Virus record (IMG/VR): IMGVR_UViG_3300000576_000008
Coordinates: 1 to 39,910 of that record
DNA from: a virus
Length of the DNA stretch: 39,910 bases
Reading direction: 5' to 3' (one strand)
Below are positions 2,346 to 39,910 of this stretch, piece after piece; the stretch's first letter is position 1; every line of letters begins with the position of its first letter. The notes beneath the pieces are model-generated. The model made no database searches and had not been told where the DNA came from. It saw only the letters and a list, made by a program, of their open reading frames with translations. The translations under genes and the position numbers were made by a program.

Positions 2346-2410
2346 TCCCGATAGTGCCCTAGCTGGTCGATTCAGGGCCATCCGAGGCGGTTCGTGCCTC
2401 AGCGTGCCTA
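2170..2410. other. attP: attP candidate with arm-type direct repeats
   Basis: GTGCCT-type repeats occur at 2171, 2200, 2211 and 2222 on the left (the last three are exact GTGCCTG at an 11-bp period) and at 2354 (GTGCCCT), 2394 and 2404 on the right, the last overlapping the integrase stop. Between them lies about 125 bp containing an inverted pair CTAGTAGC (2252 region) and GCTACTAG (about 2312). Two clusters of arm repeats around a core, next to a tyrosine integrase, is the expected attP layout. The crossover core cannot be identified without the host attB; no tRNA 3' end is recognisable. Confidence 0.55.
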
Positions 2411-3532
2411 ACCGATGCTGCGAAGCCCGCCGCCGAGGTCCACGTCACGGATGCCCGCCAGCTTCGTCGCGGCCTGCTCAAGCTGCGCCGGCCACAGGTG
2501 GGTGTAGACCTTCGCCGTGATGGTCGGGTCAGCGTGGCCGAGCCACTGCGACGCCTCGACGATCGACACCCCGGTCGCGTACAGCCACGACGCGCAGGTG
2601 TGCCGCAGGGCGTGCGGGTTGAACGGCTCCACCTTGGCCGCCTTGCACGCCCGACCGAGCGCGTAGTGCAGGCTCGTGGAGTGCAGCGGCACCGACGGGT
2701 TGCGCGGCGAGGCGAACATGAAGCCCGGCCCGTGGCGGCGCTCCACGATCGCTGTGAGGTCCGGGGCGACCGGGGTGTAGCGCGTGGCCTCACCGATCTC
2801 GTCCTGGCCCTTGAGCGGCGCGTAGCGCTTGCGCGTGGAGTCCCACTGCTTCTCGAGGACGAAGTGGTTGCCCGACGGTGCCACGTCGCGGCCGGTGAGC
2901 CCTAGTGCCTCATGGATGCGGAAGCCGGTCCATGCCAGCAGCCATACGAGGTCGGCGTAGAGCTCGTCCATCGCGGCCGTGACCGCCACCACCTCGTCGT
3001 AGGTGAGGTAGCGCCGCGCCTTGACGTTGCCGCCGCGGGGCAACTCGATCGACCTGTGCTTCGCCGGGTTGCGGTTGAGCCGCTGGTCGTCCACTGCTGC
3101 CGCGAGGATGGCGCGCAGGTGCGTCAGGTAGAGCGCGACCGTGTTCGGTGCGCGGCCCGCCTTGTCCCACTCAGCGATGCGCTGGCGGACGTGGGCGGGC
3201 TCAAGGTCTGCGAGCTCCACCTCGCCGAGCCACCCGAGTTGGCCGATGGTCTGCCGGTAACCGCGCGCGGTCGAGTCAGCGATGCCGATGCGCCCCTCGA
3301 TCCACGCGCTCGCCCACGACGTCACCGTCACCTTGCCCGAGGACGGGTCGATGAAGGCACCGTTGCGAGCCTGCACATGGGCCTCCTCGACGGCTGCTCG
3401 AGCCTCGCGCGCCGTGGGGTAGGACCCGATGGCAACCTGGCGGCCGTCGATGCTGGGGCGAGCCTGGTATTGGCCCGAGGGGAGCCGGCGCACGCCGGGG
3501 GGCAGCTTCCTAGCCACACTGTGTCCGTTCAT
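2408..3532 (-). CDS. int: Tyrosine-family integrase
   Basis: 374 residues from ATG 3532, which carries the start-associated motif TACCACGG directly upstream; GTG 3517 is an alternative, and a longer open frame to 3703 lacks start signals. An N-terminal arm-binding-like region (PSGQYQARPSIDGRQV.IGSY) is followed by a SAM-like core-binding region (about 70-150) and the catalytic domain. Catalytic residues seen: R205 (TGFRIHEAL), H307 and R310 (NPHALRHT), H333 (WLGHADP) and nucleophile Y343 (VYTH). It catalyses site-specific integration and excision. The attP candidate lies at its 3' end, and an excisionase-like HTH gene lies upstream in the same direction. Confidence 0.93.
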   Translation of the reverse strand: MNGHSVARKLPPGVRRLPSGQYQARPSIDGRQVAIGSYPTAREARAAVEEAHVQARNGAFIDPSSGKVTVTSWASAWIEGRIGIADSTARGYRQTIGQLGWLGEVELADLEPAHVRQRIAEWDKAGRAPNTVALYLTHLRAILAAAVDDQRLNRNPAKHRSIELPRGGNVKARRYLTYDEVVAVTAAMDELYADLVWLLAWTGFRIHEALGLTGRDVAPSGNHFVLEKQWDSTRKRYAPLKGQDEIGEATRYTPVAPDLTAIVERRHGPGFMFASPRNPSVPLHSTSLHYALGRACKAAKVEPFNPHALRHTCASWLYATGVSIVEASQWLGHADPTITAKVYTHLWPAQLEQAATKLAGIRDVDLGGGLRSIG

Positions 3533-3540
3533 CCGTGGTA
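3530..3540 (-). repeat. Start-associated motif at int (TACCACGGATG)
   Basis: Exact TACCACGGATG whose ATG is the proposed integrase start; the following bases AACGGACA recur at the motif at 18416. Confidence 0.7.
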
Positions 3541-3572
3541 GCGCTGATGATGCCATAGTGGCAGCGGGGCGT

Positions 3573-3764
3573 CTAGGGCTTACAGGTGAAGTCCTTGAGG
3601 TCCCACGAGTAGTGGCCGTACTGACTGCTCGGTTCGCCGCAGCGCCCGCAGTGGTATCCGGCGCAGACCGACTTGCTGTTGCCCTCGCTGTCAATGATGC
3701 CAACTCGTCGGCAGCGCATGTCGTTGCACTCCTCGCCGACGTTCACTTCTCGGCCGCCCCTCAC
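3573..3764 (-). CDS. 63-residue zinc-binding miniprotein
   Basis: GTG 3764 overlaps the stop of the preceding gene (GTGA); GTG 3746 is an alternative. The product has a CNDMRC pair and a CGRCG pair, and the intervening sequence suggests a small zinc ribbon. It is the last gene of the leftward operon before the integrase. Function unknown; nucleic-acid or protein contact through the ribbon is an inference. Confidence 0.6.
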   Translation of the reverse strand: MRGGREVNVGEECNDMRCRRVGIIDSEGNSKSVCAGYHCGRCGEPSSQYGHYSWDLKDFTCKP

Positions 3765-5126: not shown

Positions 5127-5446
5127 CCCTCGCTCCTTAGCTCGCGTTCGATCTCGCCGCTCATCCAGTGCTCGGGCCGCCACACGACGACTCGCTGACT
5201 CGCCATGTGAAGGTCGCCGATCCACTCCTGCTGCTCGTGGCTCAGTCGACCCTTGGCCGACTTGAGTTCAGCGAAGATGACGCCGCCTCGCCCGACGATC
5301 ACGAGGTCAGGGAACCCAGCGCCGTCAGCCGCGACTGGCGTGATCCAGTTGCCCGCCTTGGTCATCGCCGGGCGGAAGTGGGCGACGCGCAGCTTGAGCC
5401 AGCGACACAGGTCGATGACGTTCTGCTGCAACTCAGCCTCGGTCAC
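5123..5446 (-). CDS. VRR-NUC domain nuclease
   Basis: GTG 5446 overlaps the methyltransferase stop (GTGA) with GGGGAGG upstream; ATG 5467 is less likely. 107 residues. The core GFPDLVIVGRGGVIFAELK followed by GRLSHEQQEW matches the VRR-NUC branch of the PD-(D/E)XK superfamily: Asp of PDL, Glu of AELK and Lys are the catalytic set. Phage VRR-NUC proteins are structure-selective nucleases, often linked to recombination intermediates. Operon partners are a DNA methyltransferase and a RecT-like annealing protein. Confidence 0.85.
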   Translation of the reverse strand: MTEAELQQNVIDLCRWLKLRVAHFRPAMTKAGNWITPVAADGAGFPDLVIVGRGGVIFAELKSAKGRLSHEQQEWIGDLHMASQRVVVWRPEHWMSGEIERELRSEG

Positions 5447-6768
5447 TCGAGCCTCCCCATGATCCACTCGGGGACGTTGACTGTGACGGCGTTGCCGAGC
5501 GCCCGGTAGCGAGCGGAGTCACTGCCGGCGGGCTCGGTCCATCCAGCCGGAAATGCCTGCAATGCCTCGCACTCCTGCGGCGTCAACCTGCGGACGCCGT
5601 ACTGCGTGGCGACCGCCTGTGTGGCCCTCTGAGCGTTGAGGCCGTACGCCGGGCCGCCGGGCTTGCCGATGCCTGTTCCGGGCGTCCCTGCCCCGCTGGG
5701 GTGATTGTGGCGCACCGACTGGCGCATCATGTCGATGGGGACGGCAGCGATGTTGTGGTCGTCCTCTTGCCGGCGACCGGGAGCGTTGGCCTTGCCCGAC
5801 GATCCGCGCGTGAGTGTCGCTGCCAGCATCGGCGCGAGCACCGAGCCGGGGTCGCCGTTGCGTCCCGTCACCGGCTGCGTGTAGCCCTCCGAGGTGATGA
5901 CGTCGGACGCCGACGAGGTGGCGATCACTGACCCGCTGGAAACCTCTTGGAGATTGCTGTAGTTCTTCGGCCCATACGCAGTCGTCAAAGTCCCGACCTC
6001 CGCAGGCACGAACGTCATTCGGTCGAGGTCGTCGCCTCCGTGAGTGACCCCGATCGTGCCCGCAGCGCCGTCAAGAGCGCCGGGGGTAGCGACTTGCCCC
6101 GCTTGTCCGCACGCCTCAGAATCCCCGCGCACGCCTTCGGGCTTAGCCAGTAGGGCTCCGAAGGCTCGACGCTCAGAAGCACCTCCGAGAGCGACACAGG
6201 CGTACACACGGCGGCGTCGTTGGGGCACTCCGAAGTGTCGGCTGTCGAGGACGCGCCAGGACACTGCTCGTCGTCCTCGAGCAGCCATACCCGAGTTCCA
6301 TCGGACTCGTTCATCGAGTCCAGCAGGCTCACTTGCTCCGACCAAGGCGGCGACCACATGGGGGAACGTCCTCTCTCCGTCGTCATTGGTGATGCTGAGC
6401 ACGCCGGGGACGTTCTCCCACAGCGCGTAAGACAGCCCGCGCGCAGCGAGGCCATCCACGATGCGGACGTAGTCGGCGAACAGGCGCGACTCAATGTGCT
6501 CCATGCCCTTGCGGCCCCCGGCGACCGAGAAGCCCTGGCACGGTGAGCCGCCAGTCACAATGTCGACGGCCTCCACCTCGGTCGGGTCCAGTTCGGAGAC
6601 GTCGTCGTAGATGGGCACGCCGGGGAACCGCTCACGTAGGACGCGCTGCGCGGCCGGGTCGATCTCGCACAGCCACGCGACCTCGCCGCCGTTCAGTTGC
6701 CACGCCCGCTCGAACCCACCTACTCCGCTGAACAGGCCACCGAGCTTGCGCCCCTTCGCCCCGCTCAT
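5443..6768 (-). CDS. C5-cytosine DNA methyltransferase
   Basis: 441 residues from ATG 6768. Motifs in order: I (GLFSGVGGFE, residues 11-20, SAM binding), IV with the catalytic Cys77 in GGSPCQGFS, VI (ENVPGV, 118-123), VIII (QRRRRVY, about 190) and X (RALGNAV, near 424). The region between VIII and IX is long and low in recognisable motifs, as expected for the target-recognition domain. It transfers a methyl group from S-adenosylmethionine to cytosine C5. There is no classical restriction partner, so protection of phage DNA is the usual interpretation; its overlap with a VRR-NUC gene is noted. Confidence 0.93.
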   Translation of the reverse strand: MSGAKGRKLGGLFSGVGGFERAWQLNGGEVAWLCEIDPAAQRVLRERFPGVPIYDDVSELDPTEVEAVDIVTGGSPCQGFSVAGGRKGMEHIESRLFADYVRIVDGLAARGLSYALWENVPGVLSITNDDGERTFPHVVAALVGASEPAGLDERVRWNSGMAARGRRAVSWRVLDSRHFGVPQRRRRVYACVALGGASERRAFGALLAKPEGVRGDSEACGQAGQVATPGALDGAAGTIGVTHGGDDLDRMTFVPAEVGTLTTAYGPKNYSNLQEVSSGSVIATSSASDVITSEGYTQPVTGRNGDPGSVLAPMLAATLTRGSSGKANAPGRRQEDDHNIAAVPIDMMRQSVRHNHPSGAGTPGTGIGKPGGPAYGLNAQRATQAVATQYGVRRLTPQECEALQAFPAGWTEPAGSDSARYRALGNAVTVNVPEWIMGRLE

Positions 6769-29375: not shown

Positions 29376-30489
29376 CCCACGAGGCGCACCGATCGTCAAC
29401 CGCATCGGCGGCGCACTGAGCCGCGGCTTCTGGAACACCGTCGACCGCGTTGACAGCCTCGGCGCGCCAGGTGGCCGCGGTGTGCTCCACAGCCCGCTGC
29501 GCGACCTTGGGCTCGTTGAGGACGATCGCACCTTGCGGAGTGGGGAAGTTCCAAACCGCGCCATGAGCGTTGAGCAACCCGACCCAATCGCGCCCCCCGG
29601 CGAGGATGCGACCCCCGAGGAGGTTGTGGCGTATCTGCGCGCACAGGGGTTTGAGGTCGAGGAGCCGGACCAAGAGCTCGGGTCCGGCTTCAACGACCAG
29701 GCCCGCGGTATATGGATGGGCGACCACCGCATGGGCGGCAACTACATGCGCCCCAACCGCGACGAGCCCTACGTTGAGGGCGATCAGCGCATCATTCTTC
29801 AGGAGCTCCCCGAGGAGGGCTTGGCGCTCCTACAGGACCGACTCGTCGGAATCGGCCTGATCGACCCGACCGCGCCCGGATTCGTTCGTGGCGGCGTCGG
29901 GACGGCGACGGTCGATGCGTTCGGGTTCGTGCTCGGCGAGTCCAACGGGCTCGGCATGGACTGGCGTCAGTCGCTCGACCTGATGACCATGAACTACTCC
30001 CGAGGTGGCGCAGCGTCAGCGACCGGCGGTGGCCCTGGCGGCGACGGCGCAGAGCCGATGGGCGAGCAGGGGTTCGTGGCCCCCATCCGCACCCTTGAGC
30101 CCGACCGCGACCGGCTGCGGCAGGACGTGATGGGTTACGCCCGCGACCGGCTCGGCCGCGACCTGTCCGACGAGGAGGCCGACGCACTCTCGGGCGTGCT
30201 CGCCGACATCGAGAACGACAGCTTCAACCGCCAGGTCGCCGCATCCCGCAGCGAGTTTGACGCTCGCCAAGCTGCGGCCGGACAGCCCGGAGGGGTTCGC
30301 GGGGCCGACGGCTCCCCTTCCGGTGAGGAGTTCGGCGACAACTTCATCGCTTCCAAGTTCGAGCGCAACTTCGATGATCGGTTCGCCGGGGAACTCAACC
30401 TTGTCGGCCGCATGGACGCGGCTCGCCAACTCACCGACGGGCTCACGCAAGGGTTCAACATGGCCAGCCGAATGACCGGAGGCGTCTGA
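29368..30489 (+). CDS. Virion-region protein, unknown
   Basis: 373 residues; ATG overlaps the giant protein's stop, with GGGAGG upstream. Segments: TPEEVVAYLRAQGFEVEEPD, then a module QELPEEGLALLQDRLVGIGL...FGFVLGESNGLGMDWRQSLDLM (about residues 150-220) similar in style to repeat-bearing tail or internal proteins, then a helical end. Followed by the cell-wall hydrolase gene with overlapping stop/start. Structural role inferred. Confidence 0.6.
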   Translation: MPDPRGAPIVNRIGGALSRGFWNTVDRVDSLGAPGGRGVLHSPLRDLGLVEDDRTLRSGEVPNRAMSVEQPDPIAPPGEDATPEEVVAYLRAQGFEVEEPDQELGSGFNDQARGIWMGDHRMGGNYMRPNRDEPYVEGDQRIILQELPEEGLALLQDRLVGIGLIDPTAPGFVRGGVGTATVDAFGFVLGESNGLGMDWRQSLDLMTMNYSRGGAASATGGGPGGDGAEPMGEQGFVAPIRTLEPDRDRLRQDVMGYARDRLGRDLSDEEADALSGVLADIENDSFNRQVAASRSEFDARQAAAGQPGGVRGADGSPSGEEFGDNFIASKFERNFDDRFAGELNLVGRMDAARQLTDGLTQGFNMASRMTGGV

Positions 30490-31727
30490 TGCCAAGAGAT
30501 CGCGTGGATCAGTTCATGGACACGATCGCCGGCATTGAGTCCGGCGGGCAGCGCGACCCCGTCAACGTCCAGAACAACCGCACGCAGGCCCACGGCCTGT
30601 TTCAGATCATGCCGAACAACTGGTCCCCTTGGGCCAAGGAGGCGGGGCTCAGCGGCAGCGCACCGCGCACTGCGGAGAACCAGCACCGCGTCGCCCGCCA
30701 CAAGATGATGCAGTACTACGACCAGTTCGGATCGTGGGACGCCGTCGCCGTCGCGTGGTTCGCAGGCCCCGGCCGCGCCCGGCGTTTCACGCAAGGTGAC
30801 CGCAGCGTGCTGAACCTTGATGACGGCGGGCCGAACCGCCAAGGCACCACCGTCGGTGAGTACATCGACAAGCTCCGCACCGGCATGGGCAGCACCCCAG
30901 CGATGCGCGCGGGCACTGAGCCCACGCCTGGCGTTGACGCTATGGACCCCGAGGCGTACGACCCCAACGCCATGCTGGCTGAGGTGTTCGGCACGCTGTC
31001 TGACCGGGTCGCCGGGCGCGACCCTTCGCAGCGGGGTCAGTACGGCGGCCGCGGGGGGCTGACCGAATCCATCTTCGACCTTGGTGGGGCGGGGGGTATC
31101 ACCGCTAGGTCGCAGCAGCCCCAGCAGATGCAGGACGATGCTCCCCCGCCATTGACCGAGGATCAGGCGCAGCAGGGCTCGTTGCTCAGCGAGGAGTTCG
31201 TGGATGAGAGTGGCCCGCGCGAGGACGGCCCTGAGCCGTCGCTCGTCACCGCAGGCATCGACTCGACCAACCGTGCACTCGCGGAGCTCTCCCCTGAGCA
31301 GACCGCCGAGTTGTTTGAGGCAGCCGAGACGGCATCAGCAGGCGAAGCGCAGCCGTCAGATGGCTCCGCCCATCAGGCGCTAGAGATCGGCAACCAGTAC
31401 CTCGGCACGCAGTACGTGTGGGGCGGCTCCACGCCACAGCAGGGGTTCGACTGCTCCGGGCTCGTGCAGTACGTGTTCAAGCAGATGGGCGTCGACCTCC
31501 CCCGCGTGTCCGCCGATCAGTCCCGCGCAGGCCAGGCCGTCGGTTCGATCAACGAGGCGCAGCCCGGCGACCTCGTGTTCTGGCGGGGCAGCAACGGCCG
31601 CCCCAACCACATCGGCATCTACGCTGGTGACGGCAAGTTCCTCGAGTCCCCCAACTCCCGCTCCGTCGTCCGATACTCCGAGTTGTCCAGCCGGGCCGCT
31701 CCCGACGCGATCCGAAGGGTGGCCTGA
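30489..31727 (+). CDS. Virion-associated peptidoglycan hydrolase: lytic transglycosylase plus NlpC/P60
   Basis: 412 residues. N-terminal SLT-like domain: catalytic-type Glu17 in AGIESGG, then AHGLFQIMPNNW (35-46) and an AWFAGPGRA loop near 95. A Pro/Gln/Glu-rich linker occupies about 135-295. The C-terminal NlpC/P60 domain (299-412) has the YVWGGSTPQQGFDCSG motif with nucleophile Cys322 and His374 in NHIGIY. The first domain would cleave glycan strands, the second peptide stems, opening the wall locally during DNA entry. Position among internal proteins rather than with the holin supports an infection-stage role. Confidence 0.85.
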   Translation: MPRDRVDQFMDTIAGIESGGQRDPVNVQNNRTQAHGLFQIMPNNWSPWAKEAGLSGSAPRTAENQHRVARHKMMQYYDQFGSWDAVAVAWFAGPGRARRFTQGDRSVLNLDDGGPNRQGTTVGEYIDKLRTGMGSTPAMRAGTEPTPGVDAMDPEAYDPNAMLAEVFGTLSDRVAGRDPSQRGQYGGRGGLTESIFDLGGAGGITARSQQPQQMQDDAPPPLTEDQAQQGSLLSEEFVDESGPREDGPEPSLVTAGIDSTNRALAELSPEQTAELFEAAETASAGEAQPSDGSAHQALEIGNQYLGTQYVWGGSTPQQGFDCSGLVQYVFKQMGVDLPRVSADQSRAGQAVGSINEAQPGDLVFWRGSNGRPNHIGIYAGDGKFLESPNSRSVVRYSELSSRAAPDAIRRVA

Positions 31728-31728
31728 C

Positions 31729-33105
31729 ATGCCGCTGAACCAAGGTGCCCCCGGCGGCCAGCTATGGCGGGTCGGTCAGACCTATTGGCTGGTCTACACC
31801 GTCCCCGGCTCGGAGCCCGAGGTTCCCCTCGGCTTCAAGATCGGGTCGCGCTCGCAGTTGAACGAGCTCAGCGACGGCACGCCGACCGTCGACCGGACCG
31901 TGCAGAACACGGCGGCCGCGTCGGAGCTCGGATTCCTCGACGTCGGGCTCGTGGACGAGGTCGGACAGTTCGATGAGGACCCGTGGGACGTGTGGGTCCG
32001 CAGCTACGACCGCCAGGCCCAAGCCCTGCCGATGTTGCAGGACCCCGAAGTCATGGCCCTGTACGCCTCGGCGATGCTGCGCGGCGCGAATGCGCCGACG
32101 CCCGAGGAGTTGTCGCAGACGAACTGGTGGCAGTCCCGCTCAGAGCGCGAGCGGGAATGGGCCACGCTGAACTTGCAGGACCCCGAGACGGCTCGCCGCC
32201 AGTTGGCCGACCGTCGCCGCGCGGTCGATGAACTGATGCGCTCGTCCGGGGTGGACGCTTCCGACGAACTGCTCGACTACATGGCGAACCGCTGGTCGTC
32301 GGGCAAGTGGACTGAGTCGATGACCCGGTCGCAGGTGCAGGCGCTCTCCGACCCGTACTCGGGTCAGCAGCTTGAGTCCACCGTGGAGCGCCTAGCTCGC
32401 GGCTACGACCCGTCTGGCGGCGACCGAAGTGCCTTCGAGGCGGGCCGTGACTCGGTGGAGCGGCGCGTGCGCGCGATCTTCGACAACCGCGGCGTGGGGT
32501 ACGGGCAGCACGACGACCGCAGCGTCACCGAGGACGGCGAGGAGCGCATCGCTCGCCTCACGGACGCGGTCATGTCGGGCGAGCGCACCTTGCAGGACGT
32601 GCGCGAGTCGGTCAATCAGATCGCCGGCCTCAACCCGACCACCGAGGTCGCGATCGCGCGGGAGGGCGAGGAGGAGGTCCGTGGCCTACTACTCGACTGG
32701 CTCGGACCGCAGATCGCAGGGCAGTATGAGGGGCGCTGGATGCGCGAGTGGGCCGGACGCCTGCGCAACGACCCCAACGCCCGCGAGGACTTGATGCAGG
32801 AGCTTCGCAGTCTGCGCATGGGCGTCTACCCCGAGTGGGCCAACGAGAACCTTCGCTACGCCGACGTAGCCCCGACCGCCAAGGCCCTGTTCCAGCAGGT
32901 GTGGCAGCAGGAGCCCGACGAGACGGACCCGTTCTTCAACGACATTCTGCGCATGACCGCCCCCGGCGCTGAGGGCTCCTACGCCGCCGCGGAACGGCTG
33001 CGCCGTGAGGGCCTTGAGCGCGGCGTCGAGGCTGTCAACGATCAGATGTCGTCGGGGATGCTGCAAGCCCTCGGCGGCGACGTCCGCCCTTCGATGACGA
33101 GGTAG
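31729..33105 (+). CDS. Virion-region helical protein
   Basis: 458 residues; ATG 31729 one base after the previous stop; the frame to 31627 is inside the hydrolase. A beta-rich start (WRVGQTYWLVYTVPGSEPEVP) leads to long charged helices (NWWQSRSEREREWATLNLQDP, RRQLADRRRAVDELM, PTAKALFQQVWQQEPDETD). No enzyme motif. Likely an internal or tail-core protein working with its neighbours. Confidence 0.6.
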   Translation: MPLNQGAPGGQLWRVGQTYWLVYTVPGSEPEVPLGFKIGSRSQLNELSDGTPTVDRTVQNTAAASELGFLDVGLVDEVGQFDEDPWDVWVRSYDRQAQALPMLQDPEVMALYASAMLRGANAPTPEELSQTNWWQSRSEREREWATLNLQDPETARRQLADRRRAVDELMRSSGVDASDELLDYMANRWSSGKWTESMTRSQVQALSDPYSGQQLESTVERLARGYDPSGGDRSAFEAGRDSVERRVRAIFDNRGVGYGQHDDRSVTEDGEERIARLTDAVMSGERTLQDVRESVNQIAGLNPTTEVAIAREGEEEVRGLLLDWLGPQIAGQYEGRWMREWAGRLRNDPNAREDLMQELRSLRMGVYPEWANENLRYADVAPTAKALFQQVWQQEPDETDPFFNDILRMTAPGAEGSYAAAERLRREGLERGVEAVNDQMSSGMLQALGGDVRPSMTR

Positions 33106-33112
33106 GTGCGCC

Positions 33113-34492
33113 ATGCCCACTGCTGCATACCGCGAGTCCCTTGGCCTGCCCGCCGATCCCGCGTCTGATGCCATCTGGCAGCAGCGCATCGCTGCGGGTA
33201 CGGCGACCGAGGCTCAGGCTCGAGCAGCTATCAGCGCCAAGGAGGGCAACTGGTCGTCCGGTGAGGCATACGACGCCGGGTCGGGCGGGATGCAGTTTGC
33301 TCCCTCGACGTGGGAGTCGCAGTCCGCGATTCAGGAGCGCGAGCAGGAGCGCCAGCGCCAAGTCGACTTCCGCAACGCCGCACCGCAGTGGCTCTCCGGG
33401 CCACTACTCGACGACTACGTGTCGACGTGGTCGCGCACTGGCGACCCGAACCTCGCGCTCGCGGCCGTGCGCCGCTCGTCGTCCTACGACGCCATGTTCC
33501 CCGGCAACCGTCGCGACGACGGGACGCTGCGCCACGGCGAGAACGAGTACTTCGCCACCCGCGACGCCTTCCGCAACACGATGGTCGAGTTCGGCGTCGG
33601 CAACGTCAATGACTCCGACATCGTGGAACTGTTCGAGGGTGACGTCTCGGCCAACGAGTTCTTCCGCGCGGTTGAGACGGGCTTCTCGACGTTCACCGAA
33701 CCGGGCTCCACGCAACCACCGGCAGGGCTCCTCGGCCAGTTCGTGTCCTCGTTCATCGGTGGCTCCTCGCTACCCGAGGCGCTGTCGGCCGCCCGCCAGT
33801 CCTCCGAGTACGACTCGATTTTCCAGGGCAACCGTCGCGAGGACGGCAGCCTGCGCATGGCCGAGCAGGACTATTACGCCTACACCCGCGATTGGGACCG
33901 AGTCATGGCGTCCTACGGCCTCAACCCCGAGATGATGAACTCCCACTCTGAGCGGGTTCGCACCATCGAGGCCGAGATGTCGATCAACGAGCTCGAATCC
34001 CGAATCCGGGGCGTGGCTGACGGCATCGAGTCCAATATCGGGCAAGTCCAGCAGGCGTACGCGCAGTTCTACGGCCTCGAGATGTCGCGCGAGGCGATTC
34101 TCGCATCCGCCATCGACCCGGAGATCGCGTCCGACATCTTCGAGCGCCGAATCTCGGCCGCGCAGGTCGGCGGTGAGGCTGCGCTACAGGGCTTCGCTCG
34201 CAACGTGCAGCGCGCCGAGAACCTGTCGGCCGCCGGGCTCACGCAGCAGGCCGCCCGCCAGTTGTACTCCGACGCCGCCCGCCAACTGCCGGGCCTCGAC
34301 GCCGCCGCCGAGCGTTTCCGTGACCCGCGCGGAGGGTTCGGGGTAGAGTCCTTCGAGGACGCGGGCGTGTTCGGGGACAGCCGAGTTCAGCAGCGCATGA
34401 ACCGACGGATGGATCAGGAGATGGCTGGCTTCTCCCCTCGTGGGACCGTGGCGATGGACGACCGCGGACTCGCCGGGCTGCGCCAGCGATGA
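33113..34492 (+). CDS. Virion-region protein with internal ~67-residue duplication
   Basis: 459 residues. Residues about 97-164 and 205-271 are related copies: SSSYDAMFPGNRRDDGTLR versus SSEYDSIFQGNRREDGSLR, each followed by E..YxxxRD.....M...G.N. An EGNWSSGEAYDAG... FAPSTW segment (44-67) recalls the end of an SLT-like fold but lacks a clear catalytic Glu context. A long helical C-terminus (ESRIRGVADGIESNIGQVQQ) follows. 'YD..F.GNRR.DG..R' modules are found in other phage virion proteins of unknown role. Confidence 0.65.
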   Translation: MPTAAYRESLGLPADPASDAIWQQRIAAGTATEAQARAAISAKEGNWSSGEAYDAGSGGMQFAPSTWESQSAIQEREQERQRQVDFRNAAPQWLSGPLLDDYVSTWSRTGDPNLALAAVRRSSSYDAMFPGNRRDDGTLRHGENEYFATRDAFRNTMVEFGVGNVNDSDIVELFEGDVSANEFFRAVETGFSTFTEPGSTQPPAGLLGQFVSSFIGGSSLPEALSAARQSSEYDSIFQGNRREDGSLRMAEQDYYAYTRDWDRVMASYGLNPEMMNSHSERVRTIEAEMSINELESRIRGVADGIESNIGQVQQAYAQFYGLEMSREAILASAIDPEIASDIFERRISAAQVGGEAALQGFARNVQRAENLSAAGLTQQAARQLYSDAARQLPGLDAAAERFRDPRGGFGVESFEDAGVFGDSRVQQRMNRRMDQEMAGFSPRGTVAMDDRGLAGLRQR

Positions 34493-34662
34493 CCCACTTC
34501 GTCGGCTGGGCCGTGGTCACCTTCGGGTGGGTCGTCATGGTCATCTTCGCGCTCGGCACGGTGGGCCTGCTCGCCACGGGCGACGTGGTGGGCTCGCTCA
34601 TCTGCGCCGGGATCACCTATGCGGCCTACCGCGCGGTCACATGGGGCATGGCGCAGGGCTGA
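34489..34662 (+). CDS. 57-residue two-helix membrane protein
   Basis: ATG overlaps the previous stop (ATGA). Sequence MTHFVGWAVVTFGWVVMVIF, then LGTVGLLATGDVVGSLICAGITYAAY: two membrane helices with a short end. It sits between internal proteins and the scaffold-capsid operon. It could be a second holin-like or an injection-channel component; unassigned. Confidence 0.6.
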   Translation: MTHFVGWAVVTFGWVVMVIFALGTVGLLATGDVVGSLICAGITYAAYRAVTWGMAQG

Positions 34663-34683
34663 GAATGTCGCATCCGTTGACCC

Positions 34684-34712
34684 TTGACGAGTAGCATGGC
34701 TGCTAGCATGAT
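34684..34712 (+). promoter_or_regulatory. Promoter candidate for scaffold-capsid operon
   Basis: TTGACG (34684-34689), 17 bp, CATGAT (34707-34712); a second TTGACC lies just upstream and TAGCAT occurs twice in the spacer region. A weak stem (GAGAGCC/GGCTCT, 34717-34751) follows. Confidence 0.4.
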
Positions 34713-34810
34713 GGTCGAGAGAGCCCTGCTGGTCCGCTCGCGGCTCTTTCCTAGGCAGGTTGAGCGTGACGCTGTAGTACCCGCGCCGGTCAGGCCCCAC
34801 TCGTCCTGGC

Positions 34811-34925
34811 GGCTGTACGGGAAGCACGAGTGCGCCAGGCAAGCAACTGCGAGTCTGCGAGGCGTATCGCCCGCTTGCCTTCCTCACGCCTCGCACGGCG
34901 CTGTTGGTTCCCGCGACTGGCAGCC
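34811..34925 (+). promoter_or_regulatory. Structured leader RNA with predicted pseudoknot
   Basis: Nested and interlocking perfect complements: GGCTG/CAGCC (34811-34815 with 34921-34925), CGGGAA/TTCCCG (34818-34823 with 34908-34913), GCGCC/GGCGC (34832-34836 with 34897-34901). Inside, AGGCAAGC (34837-34844) pairs with GCTTGCCT (34873-34880) and TGCGAGGCGT (34856-34865) pairs with ACGCCTCGCA (34886-34895). The last two stems cross, giving an H-type pseudoknot. It ends 28 bases before the scaffold ATG, so it is probably a 5' leader controlling the capsid operon, or a separate small RNA. Confidence 0.6.
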
Positions 34926-34953
34926 GTACCCGTAGACGCGGCGAGGTGAGTAG

Positions 34954-35412
34954 ATGGCTGACGACGACCAGCAGCAGGACGGCGACAACACAGGCGGCGG
35001 GCTTCGCGCTCAGCTTGAGAAGGCGCTCGAGGAGAACCGGACCCTCAAGGGCACGATCCGCGAGTCAGCGTTCAAGCAGGCCGGGTTTGACCCCAACGAA
35101 GGTCCGGGCGCACTGATCGCCAAGACCTACGACGGGGAAGCCACCGTTGAGGGCATCACTGAGTTCGCCAAGCAGTACGGACTCGCGCCCAACGCCGGCA
35201 AGCAGCAGTCCAGTCAGCCCGAAGGCGAAGATCAACCCACACCCGAGCAGCTTCGTGCGCAGGGTGAGGGCGCGTTGGATCAGGTCGCCCAAGGAACCAT
35301 CTCCTCCCTCGACCCGTCGATCGACGACAAGATCGCGAAGGCCGAAGTCGAGGGCGATTGGGACACGTTCAACCGTCTCAGCGCTCAGAAGCTGGAAGCC
35401 TCGCGTCGCTGA
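34954..35412 (+). CDS. Scaffold-like protein
   Basis: 152 residues; ATG with GAGGTGAG upstream. Acidic Gln/Asp-rich start, a helix with KALEENRTLKGTIRESAFKQ, EGITEFAKQYGL, a Gln/Pro/Glu linker and a helical end. Small acidic helical proteins of this style directly before the major capsid gene are typically scaffolds that guide procapsid assembly. No protease domain is visible. Confidence 0.7.
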   Translation: MADDDQQQDGDNTGGGLRAQLEKALEENRTLKGTIRESAFKQAGFDPNEGPGALIAKTYDGEATVEGITEFAKQYGLAPNAGKQQSSQPEGEDQPTPEQLRAQGEGALDQVAQGTISSLDPSIDDKIAKAEVEGDWDTFNRLSAQKLEASRR

Positions 35413-35429
35413 CGTAGAGGAGGCGCACC

Positions 35430-36410
35430 GTGACCACGGTCGCAGAGCTCGGAACGAGCTTCAACCTGCCCAACTACCGAGGCCGCGTCATCCAGTTGAC
35501 GCCCTCGGACACCCCCCTGACCTCGATCCTCATGGGCACCGCCCCTGGTGGCGGTCAGGTGTCGACCTCGCGCACGTTCGAGTGGCAGACCTACTCGCTG
35601 CGTAACGCGGGTCAGAACGTCAAGCCGGACGGTGACCGCACCGGGACGCCGCAGCACCGGGCGCGCGCCAACGTGTTCAACGTCTTGGAGACGCACCGCG
35701 AGGACGTGGACCTGGCCTACGAGAAGCTGGCGCAGATCGGCCAGTTCGACGGCCAGAACATCTCCGGTCCGAACCCGGTGGTGAACGAGGAAGCCTGGCA
35801 GATCGACCAGATGTGGAAGCAGATCAAGCGGGACATCGAGTTCTCCGCAATCAACGGCTCCTACACCCTGCCGGCCAACAACGGCCAGAACGCCGCCACC
35901 CGCGGGCTGCGCGAGGCCATCACCACCAACGTCATCGACAACGCTGCGGTCGAGCGCCCGGTGTCGCTCAATATCCTCAACGACGCCATGCAGTCCGCGT
36001 GGGACAACGGCGGCTTGCAGGAATCTGAGATGGGCACCGTCGTCGTCAACTCGGTCCAGAAGCGCTGGATCACTGACGCCCTCAAGTCGCAGCAGGGCGG
36101 CGGCACCGAGCCCCGTGAGCGCATGGTGGCCGGCGTGAGTGTTGAGACGATCCAGACGGACTTCGGCGTCCTGAACGTGATGCTCAACCGATACATGCCG
36201 CAGGACGAGATCATGATCGTCTCGCTGGACCAGTGCCAGCCGTGGTTCCGCTTCATCCCCGGCAAGGGGGTCATGTTCGCGGAGCCGACGGCCAAGGTCG
36301 GTGCCAGCAACGCCACGCAGCTGTACTGCTCCTTCGGGTTGGAGTACGGCAACGAGGCGGCTCACGCCCTCATCACTGACCTGCCCGACACCGCACCCGT
36401 TGACGCCTAG
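35430..36410 (+). CDS. Major capsid protein, SU10-like (DUF5309) family
   Basis: 326 residues; GTG preceded by GAGGAGG. The pattern NLPNYRGRVIQLTPSDTPLTSILMG near the N-terminus, RTFEWQTYSLR (about 48-58), and RPVSLNILNDAMQSAWDNGG with later VVVNSVQKRW and GVSVETIQTDFG are typical of the SU10-like branch of HK97-fold major capsid proteins. It builds the icosahedral head. Flanked by scaffold upstream and a hairpin then connector downstream. Confidence 0.88.
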   Translation: MTTVAELGTSFNLPNYRGRVIQLTPSDTPLTSILMGTAPGGGQVSTSRTFEWQTYSLRNAGQNVKPDGDRTGTPQHRARANVFNVLETHREDVDLAYEKLAQIGQFDGQNISGPNPVVNEEAWQIDQMWKQIKRDIEFSAINGSYTLPANNGQNAATRGLREAITTNVIDNAAVERPVSLNILNDAMQSAWDNGGLQESEMGTVVVNSVQKRWITDALKSQQGGGTEPRERMVAGVSVETIQTDFGVLNVMLNRYMPQDEIMIVSLDQCQPWFRFIPGKGVMFAEPTAKVGASNATQLYCSFGLEYGNEAAHALITDLPDTAPVDA

Positions 36411-36425
36411 TCGCTGACCTCAACC

Positions 36426-36463
36426 GCCGGGGAAGTCTGGACCTCCTGACAGGCTTCCCCGGC
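36426..36463 (+). terminator. Hairpin after major capsid gene (10-bp perfect stem)
   Basis: GCCGGGGAAG (36426-36435) pairs with CTTCCCCGGC (36454-36463), 18-base loop, 15 bases after the capsid stop and before the connector ribosome site. Likely a partial terminator or mRNA-stability element setting capsid-to-connector ratio. Confidence 0.6.
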
Positions 36464-36489
36464 CCTCCCACACGAGAGGGGGTCGCGAC

Positions 36490-37386
36490 ATGGCAACGGT
36501 CCTTGAGGTCGCAGAGCGCGCCGCTCGCGACTACCTGCACCCCGGCGACGATCAGCCCGTGGTCGTTCGCTTCGCTCAACCTGCGGACGAGCAGGCGCAG
36601 ACGTGGGCGCTGTCCTCAACGACGCTCGCCCCTGACGAACTCAACGCCTTCGCTCCCGGCGTGGTGCTCGAGACGACCGACGGCGAACGTGCGCTGATCG
36701 AGGACGTCAACTTCGAGCCGCTGGTCGTCACGGTCGTCCGCGGCTACGGCTCCACCGAGGCCAAGGCGCAGGCCGCCGGCGATGTGGTGACCGCCTCGCC
36801 GATGTTCTCCCGCCGAGGGCTCATCGACGCCGTCAAGGACGAGGTCGTCGCGCTCTACCCGTCGCTGTGGTTCAACGCCACCGCGCAGATCACGACCGGC
36901 TACGACCCGATCGAGGTGCCGCGCGAGGTGGTCACCCCCACTCGCCTGCTGGTGCAGTACGGGACGTCGTTCGTCGATGCGCAGTTCGACTACATGGACA
37001 ACTTCCCGCCCTCCGAGACGGGCAAGGCCATCATCCTGCGCCGCCCGCTCGACGGCTACCAAGCGTTCTTCACCTACCGCTCGAAGTTCCGCCGCCCCGC
37101 CTCCGACGATGCGCCGCTCAAGGACTCAGGCGTCGAGCCTGAGTGGGAGCGGATCGTGGCCGTCGGTGCTGCCGCGCAGGTGGTGGCGGGACGCGACTCC
37201 GAGCAACTGTCGACCGAGTACGTCACACAGGCCCTTGAGCGCGAGTTCACCCCGCCCGAGGCCCCCCGCGGCGTACGCGACGGGCTGCTCATCATGCGCT
37301 CGGTCTGGATCGAGGAGGCCGCACGGGTCCTGCGGGCCGAGGAGCCTCACCCGACGATCTACAACCGGCTGGCGCGACAGTGGTAG
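36490..37386 (+). CDS. Head-tail connector/adaptor protein candidate
   Basis: 298 residues; ATG with GAGGGGG upstream. Begins with a helix (LEVAERAARDYLHPGDDQP), then a barrel-like segment (ELNAFAPGVVLETTDGERALIEDV, EPLVVTVVRGYGST) and a helical domain (LIDAVKDEVVALYPSLWFNAT). Proteins after the capsid gene with a 'T..V.RG..G' segment usually sit at the head-tail junction. It overlaps the next gene by seven bases. Confidence 0.6.
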   Translation: MATVLEVAERAARDYLHPGDDQPVVVRFAQPADEQAQTWALSSTTLAPDELNAFAPGVVLETTDGERALIEDVNFEPLVVTVVRGYGSTEAKAQAAGDVVTASPMFSRRGLIDAVKDEVVALYPSLWFNATAQITTGYDPIEVPREVVTPTRLLVQYGTSFVDAQFDYMDNFPPSETGKAIILRRPLDGYQAFFTYRSKFRRPASDDAPLKDSGVEPEWERIVAVGAAAQVVAGRDSEQLSTEYVTQALEREFTPPEAPRGVRDGLLIMRSVWIEEAARVLRAEEPHPTIYNRLARQW

Positions 37387-39284
37387 CCCCGGCCCCCACG
37401 ACCAACAACGTCACACGCCCTCGGGCGTTCGGGTTCGGCTGCGCCCTCAACGGCCGCCTGTTCCGCCTCGCCAACGGCTTCGGTGCAGACCTCACCATCG
37501 AGACGGCCCCGACCGAAGCGCCCCGCGTCGACACCTCCTCATCGCCCGAGGAGATCGTGGACGAGTCCGGCCGCGTGTTCGCCCGCTCAGCATTCTCCGG
37601 GGGCGAGGGACTATTCCAAGCGCATCAGCCCGAAGCGGAGCGCGACCGCTACTGGGACTCGCGCGGCATCAACGCCGTGCCCGAGCGCCCCGGCGAGTTC
37701 CCACGCATCCAGTTGACCCGCGAAATGGAGCTCGTGTCCCCGTCGGCCGAATCGGGACTGCGCGCCATCACCGACGGCGACTCGGTGTGGCTCGCAGAGG
37801 GCGACGAGTTGCTGCGCACCGACAACCCGGATGCTGATACGCCCGTGTTCGTCTCCGAGGACGTCCACGTTGGCGGGACTGCGGTCACGGTCGGCGGGAT
37901 CGCCCTGCTCGGCGAGAGCATCTACGCCGCAGTCGGCGTCAACGGCATCACCCGCAAGGTGGGCGGGACGTGGGAGTCGTGGTCGGAACTCGAAGCCGTC
38001 CGCGTGTGGTCAGTCAAGGGGCGCATCGTCGCGTCCGACGGCGACTCGCTCTACGAGGTACTGGCCGGCGGCGTTGTCCCAGCACCGATTTTGACGCTAC
38101 CTGCCGGGCGTGAGTGGACGGGCGTCACCGACGGCGGCGACTTCGTGCTGGCCTCAGCGACCGACGGCTACGTCTACGCCTTCACCTCCGAGGAAGGAGA
38201 GTTGGTCCTTGTCGCGCAGACGTTGTTCGAGGGCGAGCAACCGACCGCTGTCGGGCAGGCGCAGGGCGTGGTCGGCATCGGCACCCGACAGGGTCGCATC
38301 GGCCGGCTGTGGGTCGGGACGCTCACCGAGCGCGGCGTCATTGCGAACCTGCAACTCAAGCGCGAGTGGCTGGATGACGGCTCAGGGGTCAACCGCCAGC
38401 CGTTCGCGATCACCGGGGATCGCACTGCGCTCTACACCGCCGTCGCCCTCGCCGGCACGGTCGATGTGTGGCGGCTCGAACTGACGACCCTCGGCCTGTC
38501 GCGCTACCTGACCGTGGACGCGGAGGGGTGTTCGCACGGCCTGTTCGTGAGGCAGGGCAGGGTGTGGCTTACGGTCTGCGGCTCGGGCCTCTGGCGCGAA
38601 TCTGATGCGTTCGTAGAGTCCGGCTACCTGATCGGCCCGCTGGGTGACTTCTTCAACGCCTCCGAGAAGTCGTGGGTCGGTGCACGCATCGAGCACTCCA
38701 CCCTCGATGGTCAGCGCATTGAGCTCTACTACACGACCGACCCGGACGCGCTTGCCGACCCCAACTCGTCCGCGTGGGTCCTGGTGCTGTCGCGCACGAC
38801 CGGCACGACCACCGGGGAGATTGCCCTACAGGGCGTGACGGGACGCGCGCTCGCGGGGCAGGTGCGTTTGTTCCCAAGCGACGAGCGGGACAGCACCCCG
38901 TCCGTGCGCTCGCTTTCGTTCCGCGCCTACGGCTCAGCCGGTGACGACGACGTCATCATCACCCTGCCGGTCAACATCTCGGACCAGCTTGAGCGCCGAG
39001 GCCGCCACCGCGTCCGCGCCAAGGGCGCGGGCGAGCAGGCGTACCGCGACCTCAAGGGGCTCGAAGGCCGCCCGGTCCTGCTGCGCATCTACGAGCCCTC
39101 CGAGGTCGTGCGCGGCCTCGTTGAGTCCGTGGGCGCTCCGGTACAGGCGTCGCTTCGGCGTCGATCGAACACGACCATCGCGCTCGTGCGCGTCCGCGGC
39201 CGCCGCTCCCCGACGGGGGCACTAGCGGTTGACGGGACGTTCGGCGCATCACTGTGGGGCGAGCGCCCCTGGGGAGGCTTCTAA
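37380..39284 (+). CDS. Beta-propeller-like tail/nozzle protein
   Basis: 634 residues; GTG start overlapping the connector end. Repeating beta-blade-like segments through the middle: GLRAITDGDSVWLAEGDELLRT, ALLGESIYAAVGVNGITRK, EWTGVTDGGDFVLASATDGY, and VGIGTRQGRIGRLWVG, with spacing about 40-50 residues, then RALAGQVRLFPSDERDSTPSVRSLSFR and a C-terminal basic end. This architecture and its place between connector and fibre suit a tail tubular/nozzle protein of a short-tailed phage. Inferred, no direct motif. Confidence 0.6.
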   Translation: MVAPAPTTNNVTRPRAFGFGCALNGRLFRLANGFGADLTIETAPTEAPRVDTSSSPEEIVDESGRVFARSAFSGGEGLFQAHQPEAERDRYWDSRGINAVPERPGEFPRIQLTREMELVSPSAESGLRAITDGDSVWLAEGDELLRTDNPDADTPVFVSEDVHVGGTAVTVGGIALLGESIYAAVGVNGITRKVGGTWESWSELEAVRVWSVKGRIVASDGDSLYEVLAGGVVPAPILTLPAGREWTGVTDGGDFVLASATDGYVYAFTSEEGELVLVAQTLFEGEQPTAVGQAQGVVGIGTRQGRIGRLWVGTLTERGVIANLQLKREWLDDGSGVNRQPFAITGDRTALYTAVALAGTVDVWRLELTTLGLSRYLTVDAEGCSHGLFVRQGRVWLTVCGSGLWRESDAFVESGYLIGPLGDFFNASEKSWVGARIEHSTLDGQRIELYYTTDPDALADPNSSAWVLVLSRTTGTTTGEIALQGVTGRALAGQVRLFPSDERDSTPSVRSLSFRAYGSAGDDDVIITLPVNISDQLERRGRHRVRAKGAGEQAYRDLKGLEGRPVLLRIYEPSEVVRGLVESVGAPVQASLRRRSNTTIALVRVRGRRSPTGALAVDGTFGASLWGERPWGGF

Positions 39285-39910
39285 TGCCCTTCGAGCGCAC
39301 CAACCGCGCCAACTTCGCCCAGACCGTCCTGACCCTCTCAATGGGCAGCACCGACACGGTCGCGCAGGTCGAGTCCACCGACGGCTTTCCGTCGTTGCCG
39401 TGCCGACTGGTCATCGAACCCGAGTCCCCGTCGCGCCGCGAGATCATCCTGTTCGACGGGTCCTTGACCGCGACCACCTTCCAGACGCTCACGGTCGACA
39501 ACCGCTACATCGAGGGCTCGGCCGCCGCGGCGGGACTGACGCACCCCACCGGCTCCACGGTGATCTCCGCACCCTTGAGCCAAGACATCGACGAGGTGTT
39601 CGACGCGCTTGAGCAGACGCTCACCGACGTTGACACCGCCGTTGCGGGAGCGGTCAGCGACGCCGAGCAGTCGGCGACCGCAGCGGCGGGCTCGGCCACC
39701 GCGGCTGCGCAGTCGGTCACCGACGCCGAGCAGGTCGTCACCGACGCTGAGACGACCATCACGAACAACGTCGAGGCGCAGCTACAGGCGTTCGTGGACA
39801 ACGCCGAGATCGAGTTGCAGGCGTTCGTGAACGACGCCGAGGAGGCGCGTGACGACGCTCAGACGGCGGCTGCTGCGGCTGAGGACGCTGCCATCGTGTT
39901 CGCTATCGCA
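39284..39910 (+). CDS. Tail fibre/spike N-terminus (partial, runs off window)
   Basis: ATG 39284 overlaps the previous stop (TAATG). The visible 209 residues include an N-terminal domain with GFPSLPCRLVIEPESP...IILFDGSL and LTHPTGSTVISA, a fold common at the start of phage fibre or baseplate-type proteins, then from about residue 108 an Ala/Asp/Glu/Thr-rich helical repeat (SDAEQSATAAAGSATAAAQS, VTDAEQVVTDAE) that suggests a trimeric coiled-coil shaft. The receptor-binding end is beyond the window. Confidence 0.75.
   Translation, partial: MPFERTNRANFAQTVLTLSMGSTDTVAQVESTDGFPSLPCRLVIEPESPSRREIILFDGSLTATTFQTLTVDNRYIEGSAAAAGLTHPTGSTVISAPLSQDIDEVFDALEQTLTDVDTAVAGAVSDAEQSATAAAGSATAAAQSVTDAEQVVTDAETTITNNVEAQLQAFVDNAEIELQAFVNDAEEARDDAQTAAAAAEDAAIVFAIA

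Follow-up and report, generated by a model that had tools for sequence, protein, structure and literature searches.

The 5' leader of the capsid mRNA of phage T7 (gene 10) is thought to aid stability and translation of that message. The packaging RNA of phi29 is a structured phage RNA linked to head functions. Several H-type pseudoknots in series are found in tmRNA and in the 3' domains of tobamoviruses. We know of no bacterial or phage mRNA leader that carries a run of three to four pseudoknots. The operator of T4 gene 32 is a pseudoknot in the mRNA leader, located 5' of the Shine-Dalgarno sequence (SD) (PMC535899), and RNase J1, a bacterial 5'-3' nuclease, is halted in vitro by one flavivirus xrRNA (PMC5760640). 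Pseudoknots in leaders have been described before, and so have tandem ones.

The locus described here belongs to a GC-rich, uncultured phage, IMG/VR record IMGVR_UViG_3300000576_000008, of which all 39,910 bases were analyzed (the window). An upstream gene and a small open reading frame are followed by a gap at 34663-34953, the scaffold gene and the capsid gene. No gene is evident in the gap. It holds an element of four consecutive H-type pseudoknots, PK0, PK-A, PK-B and PK-C, which occupies roughly 34719-34941, with a promoter-like site on its 5' side and the scaffold SD on its 3' side.

Four pseudoknots in tandem before the scaffold gene

The genes and signals around the element are as follows.

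33113-34492, plus strand: upstream gene, phrog_8424, function unknown, used as a query for finding relatives
34489-34662: small open reading frame
34684-34712, plus strand: promoter-like site TTGACG-17-CATGAT, scoring 9/12, with a predicted transcript start at about 34719
34943-34949, plus strand: SD of the scaffold gene, GAGGTGA, one nt 3' of PK-C, read from the sequence
34954-35412, plus strand: scaffold gene, 152 aa, downstream of the leader and named from its position between leader and capsid gene; it has a weak match to phrog_7813 (function unknown)
35430-36410, plus strand: major capsid protein, Pfam SU10_MCP (E 2.2e-67), phrog_1328 major head protein

The promoter-like site is the only one within 30000-39910. 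Promoter boxes stand at the equivalent place in relatives L003 (TTGACA/TATAAA) and L010 (TTGACT/CATACT), and many AT-rich relatives have a perfect TATAAT box immediately 5' of PK0. No intrinsic terminator-like site was found within 30000-39910, and PK-C and the SD have no terminator between them. The upstream gene has no Pfam match; it carries an internal repeat in which the motif F.GNRR.DG occurs twice, and the repeat is kept in relatives. Elsewhere in the window, a phage integrase and a C-5 cytosine DNA methylase are encoded on the minus strand (2408-3703 and 5443-6768), which suggests a temperate phage with DNA methylation. The capsid alignment found zero relatives among 84,980 bacterial and archaeal genomes, and no prophage relative was seen.

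The paired segments of the four pseudoknots, all on the plus strand, are listed below.

PK0, 34719-34766: stem 1 GAGAGCC/GGCTCTT, 34719-34725 with 34742-34748
PK0, stem 2: CGCTCG/TGAGCG, 34735-34740 with 34761-34766
PK0, alternative stem 2: CCTGC/GCAGG, 34725-34729 with 34755-34759
PK-A, 34784-34832: stem 1 CGCCGG/CTGGCG, 34784-34789 with 34806-34811; alternative GTCAGG/CCTGGC
PK-A, stem 2: CACTCGT/ACGAGTG, 34798-34804 with 34826-34832; loop 3 of 14 nt
PK-B, 34837-34895: stem 1 AGGCAAGC/GCTTGCCT, 8 bp, 34837-34844 with 34873-34880; loops of 11, 7 and 5 nt
PK-B, stem 2: TGCGAGGCGT/ACGCCTCGCA, 10 bp, 34856-34865 with 34886-34895
PK-C, 34900-34941: stem 1 GCTGTTGGT/ACTGGCAGC, 34900-34908 with 34916-34924
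PK-C, stem 2: CCGCG, 34911-34915, with CGCGG, 34937-34941; loop 3 CGTACCCGTAGA

Confidence in the window's four knots is lowest for PK0, because it has a rival second stem. The loop proportions of PK-A match those found in three clades of relatives, B, C and D, with a short loop 1, a loop 2 of 0-1 nt and a loop 3 of about 12-15 nt.

An earlier note on this DNA had placed a single enclosed pseudoknot at 34811-34925. Its two crossing stems of 8 and 10 bp are exact and form PK-B, and it was right that the region has no evident gene and ends just before the scaffold SD. The pseudoknot does precede the scaffold-capsid operon; it is one of four in tandem, and the proposed extent was too short. Three enclosing stems that the note had drawn (GCGCC/GGCGC, GGGAA/TTCCC and GGCTG/CAGCC) exist as complementary words and are not conserved in relatives. 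By eye they are not retained in L001, L010, L021, L076 and L079, and they need bases of PK-A (34784-34832) and PK-C (34900-34941), both of which recur in relatives. As complementary words they are not distinguished, because the sequence is GC-rich and its nested folding is no stabler than that of shuffles.

A simple program that seeks the best chain of H-type knots, the chain finder, returned the same four knots in the window. The chain score of the 238-nt leader was beaten by none of 500 dinucleotide shuffles (z -3.4), and it ranked fourth among 994 scored segments from both strands of the record. Nested minimum free energy was unremarkable (z +0.86 against shuffles, 34780-34940), and ordinary folding scores miss the array. 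A reading from the reverse strand was set aside: the minus strand scores almost equally on the chain score, as expected for complementary stems, and the strand was assigned from G-U pairs, the promoter and gene orientation. The single sequence gives a modest signal, so for the window the argument is one of homology, namely shared place, order and loop proportions and a PK-C loop 3 nearly identical to that of L010.

Conservation of the array in related phages

Relatives were drawn from IMG/VR. The capsid protein as query gave L001, L002 and L003 and, as an alignment, L010; the upstream gene gave 30 related loci, of which 24 were checked for synteny. Two wide capsid scans yielded a set of more than 200 loci, partly redundant. 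The order of upstream gene, gap of 150-350 nt, scaffold gene of 150-195 aa and SU10-type capsid gene largely holds at the checked loci. Leader length is near constant, at about 150-350 nt and mostly around 200, while the gap is usually shorter than 130 nt in siphophage relatives of the capsid protein. The cultured relatives LUZ24, HTVC106P and EL753P1 and the assembled genome ctXG6705 were checked, and all are without the leader gap.

Two features of the relatives lie beside the array. In L003, the interval from the upstream gene to the leader promoter has tRNA genes on the opposite strand (1840-2110); Rfam confirms one of them, and others are likely by eye. The capsid proteins of L001 (3001-4212), L003 (3001-4212) and L010 (3495-4709) have an insertion of about 75-80 residues after about residue 173, with the motif pattern HGLSVGDDFY...TRYYV...SATKGGA...DFGSD, which is missing from the window capsid (35430-36410). 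L019 and L020 have a similar insertion, which may be an inserted surface domain.

Relatives L001, L003 and L010 (64-69% identity) share this crossing topology ahead of the scaffold gene, written in other letters. Equivalents of PK-B and PK-C include the following.

L001, PK-B: CGTGGGC/GCCCACG and GCGAGGCAG/CTGCCTCGC
L010, PK-B: GTGGGC/GCCCAC and GCGGGGCGG/CCGCCCCGC
L021, PK-B: GGAACAGATG/CATTTGTTCT and GGCTGCGG/CCGCAGCC
L010, PK-C: GACCTGT/ACAGGTC and CCCACGC/GCGTGGG; loop 3 CGTACCTGTAGA

Loop 3 of PK-C is near-identical between the window (CGTACCCGTAGA) and L010 (CGTACCTGTAGA), and the stem letters differ with pairing retained. The earlier note had proposed that homologues breaking both PK-B stems without compensation would speak against the structure; that comparison was made, and compensatory changes preserve both stems.

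MAFFT alignments of divergent sets, among them the window with L001 and L010, misalign the stems, and no pair counts were taken from these. Covariation was counted clade by clade: a single member supplied the structure, which was then counted across the alignment without refitting, so that the counts refer to sequences that are kin and to a structure derived from one of them. Clade D (11 sequences, four knots) has PK0, PK-A, PK-B and PK-C in succession from the -10 box to the SD. Here 98.3% of cells are paired, against 27-39% in slid controls, and 17 of 47 pairs are changed on both sides (0-2 pairs in slid controls). Clade C comprises 21 sequences with PK0, PK-A and PK-C; 94.5% of its cells are paired, and both sides are changed in 15 pairs and 103 cells, compared with 2-4 pairs and 5-19 cells in slid controls. 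The 12 sequences of clade B, again with four knots, are 93.6% paired and contain 15 doubly changed pairs (1-3 in slid controls). PK0 is the weakest knot in clade B, at 75-83% paired, and its compensatory changes are weak there and present in clades C and D. Stem 2 of PK-C illustrates the pattern. CACAG/CTGTG is replaced by CTATG/CATAG within clade D, and CCAAG/CTTGG by CACAG/CTGTG and CCCAG/CTGGG within clade B. Thus the crossing order S1, S2, S1', S2' of an H-type pseudoknot is kept by compensatory change. Conserved stems also contain G-U pairs, which argues for an RNA of this strand.

In many relatives the best-scoring single pseudoknot of a leader was too weak by itself, and the analysis relied on the chain test and on alignments. 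The chain finder gave four knots each in L010, L001, L021 and L077, with 0, 3, 1 and 0 of 500 shuffles, respectively, scoring as well; for L003, which like L010 and L001 is among the closest relatives of the window, the number was 28 of 500. Across 64 non-redundant leaders the mean z was -2.88, and 59 of them have a knot that ends between -24 and -11 from the start codon, as do 25% of shuffles. As controls we used 43 regions upstream of the scaffold gene in leaderless capsid relatives. Their mean z was -0.35, and 14 of 43 had such a knot, near the shuffled rate. The comparative evidence is decisive because the leader ranks only fourth among 994 segments and its nested energy is ordinary. By computation, the four-knot architecture is conserved by compensatory change, precedes the scaffold gene and lies at a nearly fixed distance from the SD.

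Chance pairing in a GC-rich sequence draws support from other segments of the record that score as high and from the ordinary nested folding, yet it is contradicted by compensatory changes in three AT-rich clades and by recurrence at the same start-codon distance; it is already refuted for the leader family as a whole, and we give it almost no weight.

Candidate roles of the leader

We assign a probability of about 0.5 to the reading that the element is a structured 5' leader of the scaffold-capsid mRNA that would control, in cis, the translation of this mRNA, its stability or both. The TATAAT boxes upstream of PK0 in many AT-rich leaders, together with gene orientation and the G-U pairs, point to an RNA of this strand that begins at PK0, and hence to a 5' leader. 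The near-constant distance from PK-C to the SD points to cis action on the scaffold mRNA. We infer the transcript start, the cis action, and stability and translation as the controlled processes.

The mechanism that we favour is read from the position and anatomy of the leader. The promoter immediately upstream would start transcription, and the RNA would open with PK0. The four knots would then fold successively into a leader of about 220 nt, with few exposed bases before the scaffold SD and start codon. The knot array would shield the 5' end from 5'-end-dependent decay, and PK-C, abutting the SD, would impose a defined state on the ribosome site, thereby setting scaffold and capsid output. 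Protection of the 5' end and presentation of the ribosome site are favoured by analogy with the RNAs that stop RNase J1 and with the T7 gene 10 leader. The leader probably controls the amount of capsid protein made.

The main rival, again by analogy, is an autogenous operator of the T4 gene 32 kind. Scaffold or capsid protein in free form would bind the knot array and stop translation of its own mRNA, and scaffold supply would track assembly, in the manner of the gene 32 protein and its leader pseudoknot. The P22 scaffolding protein regulates its own synthesis post-transcriptionally, which counts for this proposal. So does the arrangement of the locus, since the array always precedes the scaffold gene and the last knot lies directly 5' of an exposed SD, as the T4 leader pseudoknot lies 5' of its SD (PMC535899). 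The near-constant SD spacing would fit a protein-bound operator equally well. However, inspection by eye revealed no conserved single-stranded recognition motif across clades, and four knots exceed the need of such an operator. Nor does the leader have the long UUAAA region without structure that marks the T4 type: in 59 of 64 leaders 11-24 nt separate the last knot from the start codon, where an unstructured UUAAA-rich stretch of more than 40 nt would be expected. We regard the operator as unlikely, though well ahead of a negligible case, and nothing in the present evidence separates it from the protective leader.

An RNA antiterminator appears improbable. Such a leader would act on polymerase near the promoter and cause read-through of late-operon terminators; put RNA of HK022 is the model. 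The predicted 5' end, the adjoining promoter and the place at the head of a long operon fit a put-type element, for which antitermination is a candidate role only. Nevertheless, antitermination does not need the near-constant distance from last knot to start codon (59/64), and no intrinsic terminator-like site was found within 30000-39910.

Still less probable is a trans-acting RNA, whether a packaging RNA like that of phi29 or a small RNA processed out of the leader. It draws support from the phi29 precedent and from the high degree of structure next to head genes. As there is no terminator from PK-C to the SD and gene spacing is near constant in all clades, processing would be required. The near-constant spacing of the last knot to the SD and start codon (59/64 leaders) suggests a cis-acting mRNA leader, and for this reason both an independent transcript and the packaging RNA offered as an option in the earlier note are disfavoured.

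A ligand riboswitch or an SD-sequestering switch is just as improbable. SD-adjacent pseudoknots are typical of some riboswitches, and in L001 and L077 the SD seems to lie inside stem 2 of PK-C, which would suit sequestration. In L001 (2490-2545) and L031 (4880-4930), upstream CGCTCCTC or CTCTCCTC, respectively, is complementary to the scaffold SD GAGGAGTG or GAGGAGAG, and a few relatives such as these may sequester the SD. On the other hand, no invariant ligand-pocket sequence recurs across clades, Rfam has no match, and most leaders (59/64) keep the SD outside the knot. Simple sequestration is unlikely, since the SD usually comes immediately downstream of the last knot. The earlier suggestion of a translational switch or a stability element survives as the leading kind of explanation, and only its SD-sequestering form is disfavoured.

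Comparison with described RNAs

As the earlier note had supposed, the element matches no known RNA family. Rfam 15 has no match in the window at the gathering score, and 34660-34960 searched with E up to 5 gave one spurious match only. Among 33 relatives the sole Rfam match was a tRNA in L003. We found no prior description of tandem pseudoknots or of such phage capsid leaders in the open literature, a scope outside which most subscription papers lie. Because it is absent from Rfam 15 and was not found in the open literature searched, the serial late-mRNA leader of three or four knots is filed as an RNA family of its own. A broader claim, which we hold tentatively and at somewhat less than even odds, joins three statements: that there is a new and widespread RNA class in which three to four H-type pseudoknots are arrayed in series at the extreme 5' end of the scaffold-capsid mRNAs of phages; that the array works as a mechanical unit, both nuclease barrier and ribosome-loading platform; and that its topology and spacing are conserved while nearly all stem letters have changed.

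The array recurs in a large group of uncultured phages of widely varying base composition. It offers a simple system for asking what stacked pseudoknots do in a bacterium, whether in 5' decay, ribosome positioning or the sensing of assembly proteins. The balance of scaffold and capsid output, an old question in phage biology, becomes testable at one defined RNA.

Other known structures differ from the leader to varying degrees. A topology like that of the HDV ribozyme was rejected by eye, since there is no P3 hairpin and some relatives have nothing between S2 and S1'. tmRNA acts in trans with a tRNA domain and a tag frame, and ARAGORN finds neither a tRNA-like domain nor a tag frame of this kind here; no tRNA or tmRNA was found in the window. 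The pseudoknot domain of tobamoviruses is located in the 3' UTR. The phi29 packaging RNA is a separate transcript and is not joined to a scaffold ribosome site. The T7 gene 10 leader has a hairpin from RNase III cutting, without a pseudoknot array. Flavivirus xrRNAs resemble the array in being pseudoknotted and often tandem. However, they occur in the 3' UTRs of RNA viruses and are three-way junctions whose ring encircles the 5' end; the paired pattern of the leader has no such junction and consists of simple H-type knots within a 5' leader. The operator of T4 gene 32 shares with the array a leader pseudoknot 5' of the SD in a DNA-encoded phage mRNA. The T4 leader has one knot, followed by a long unstructured UUAAA region, and guards the SSB gene with a known binding protein, whereas here three or four knots follow one another.
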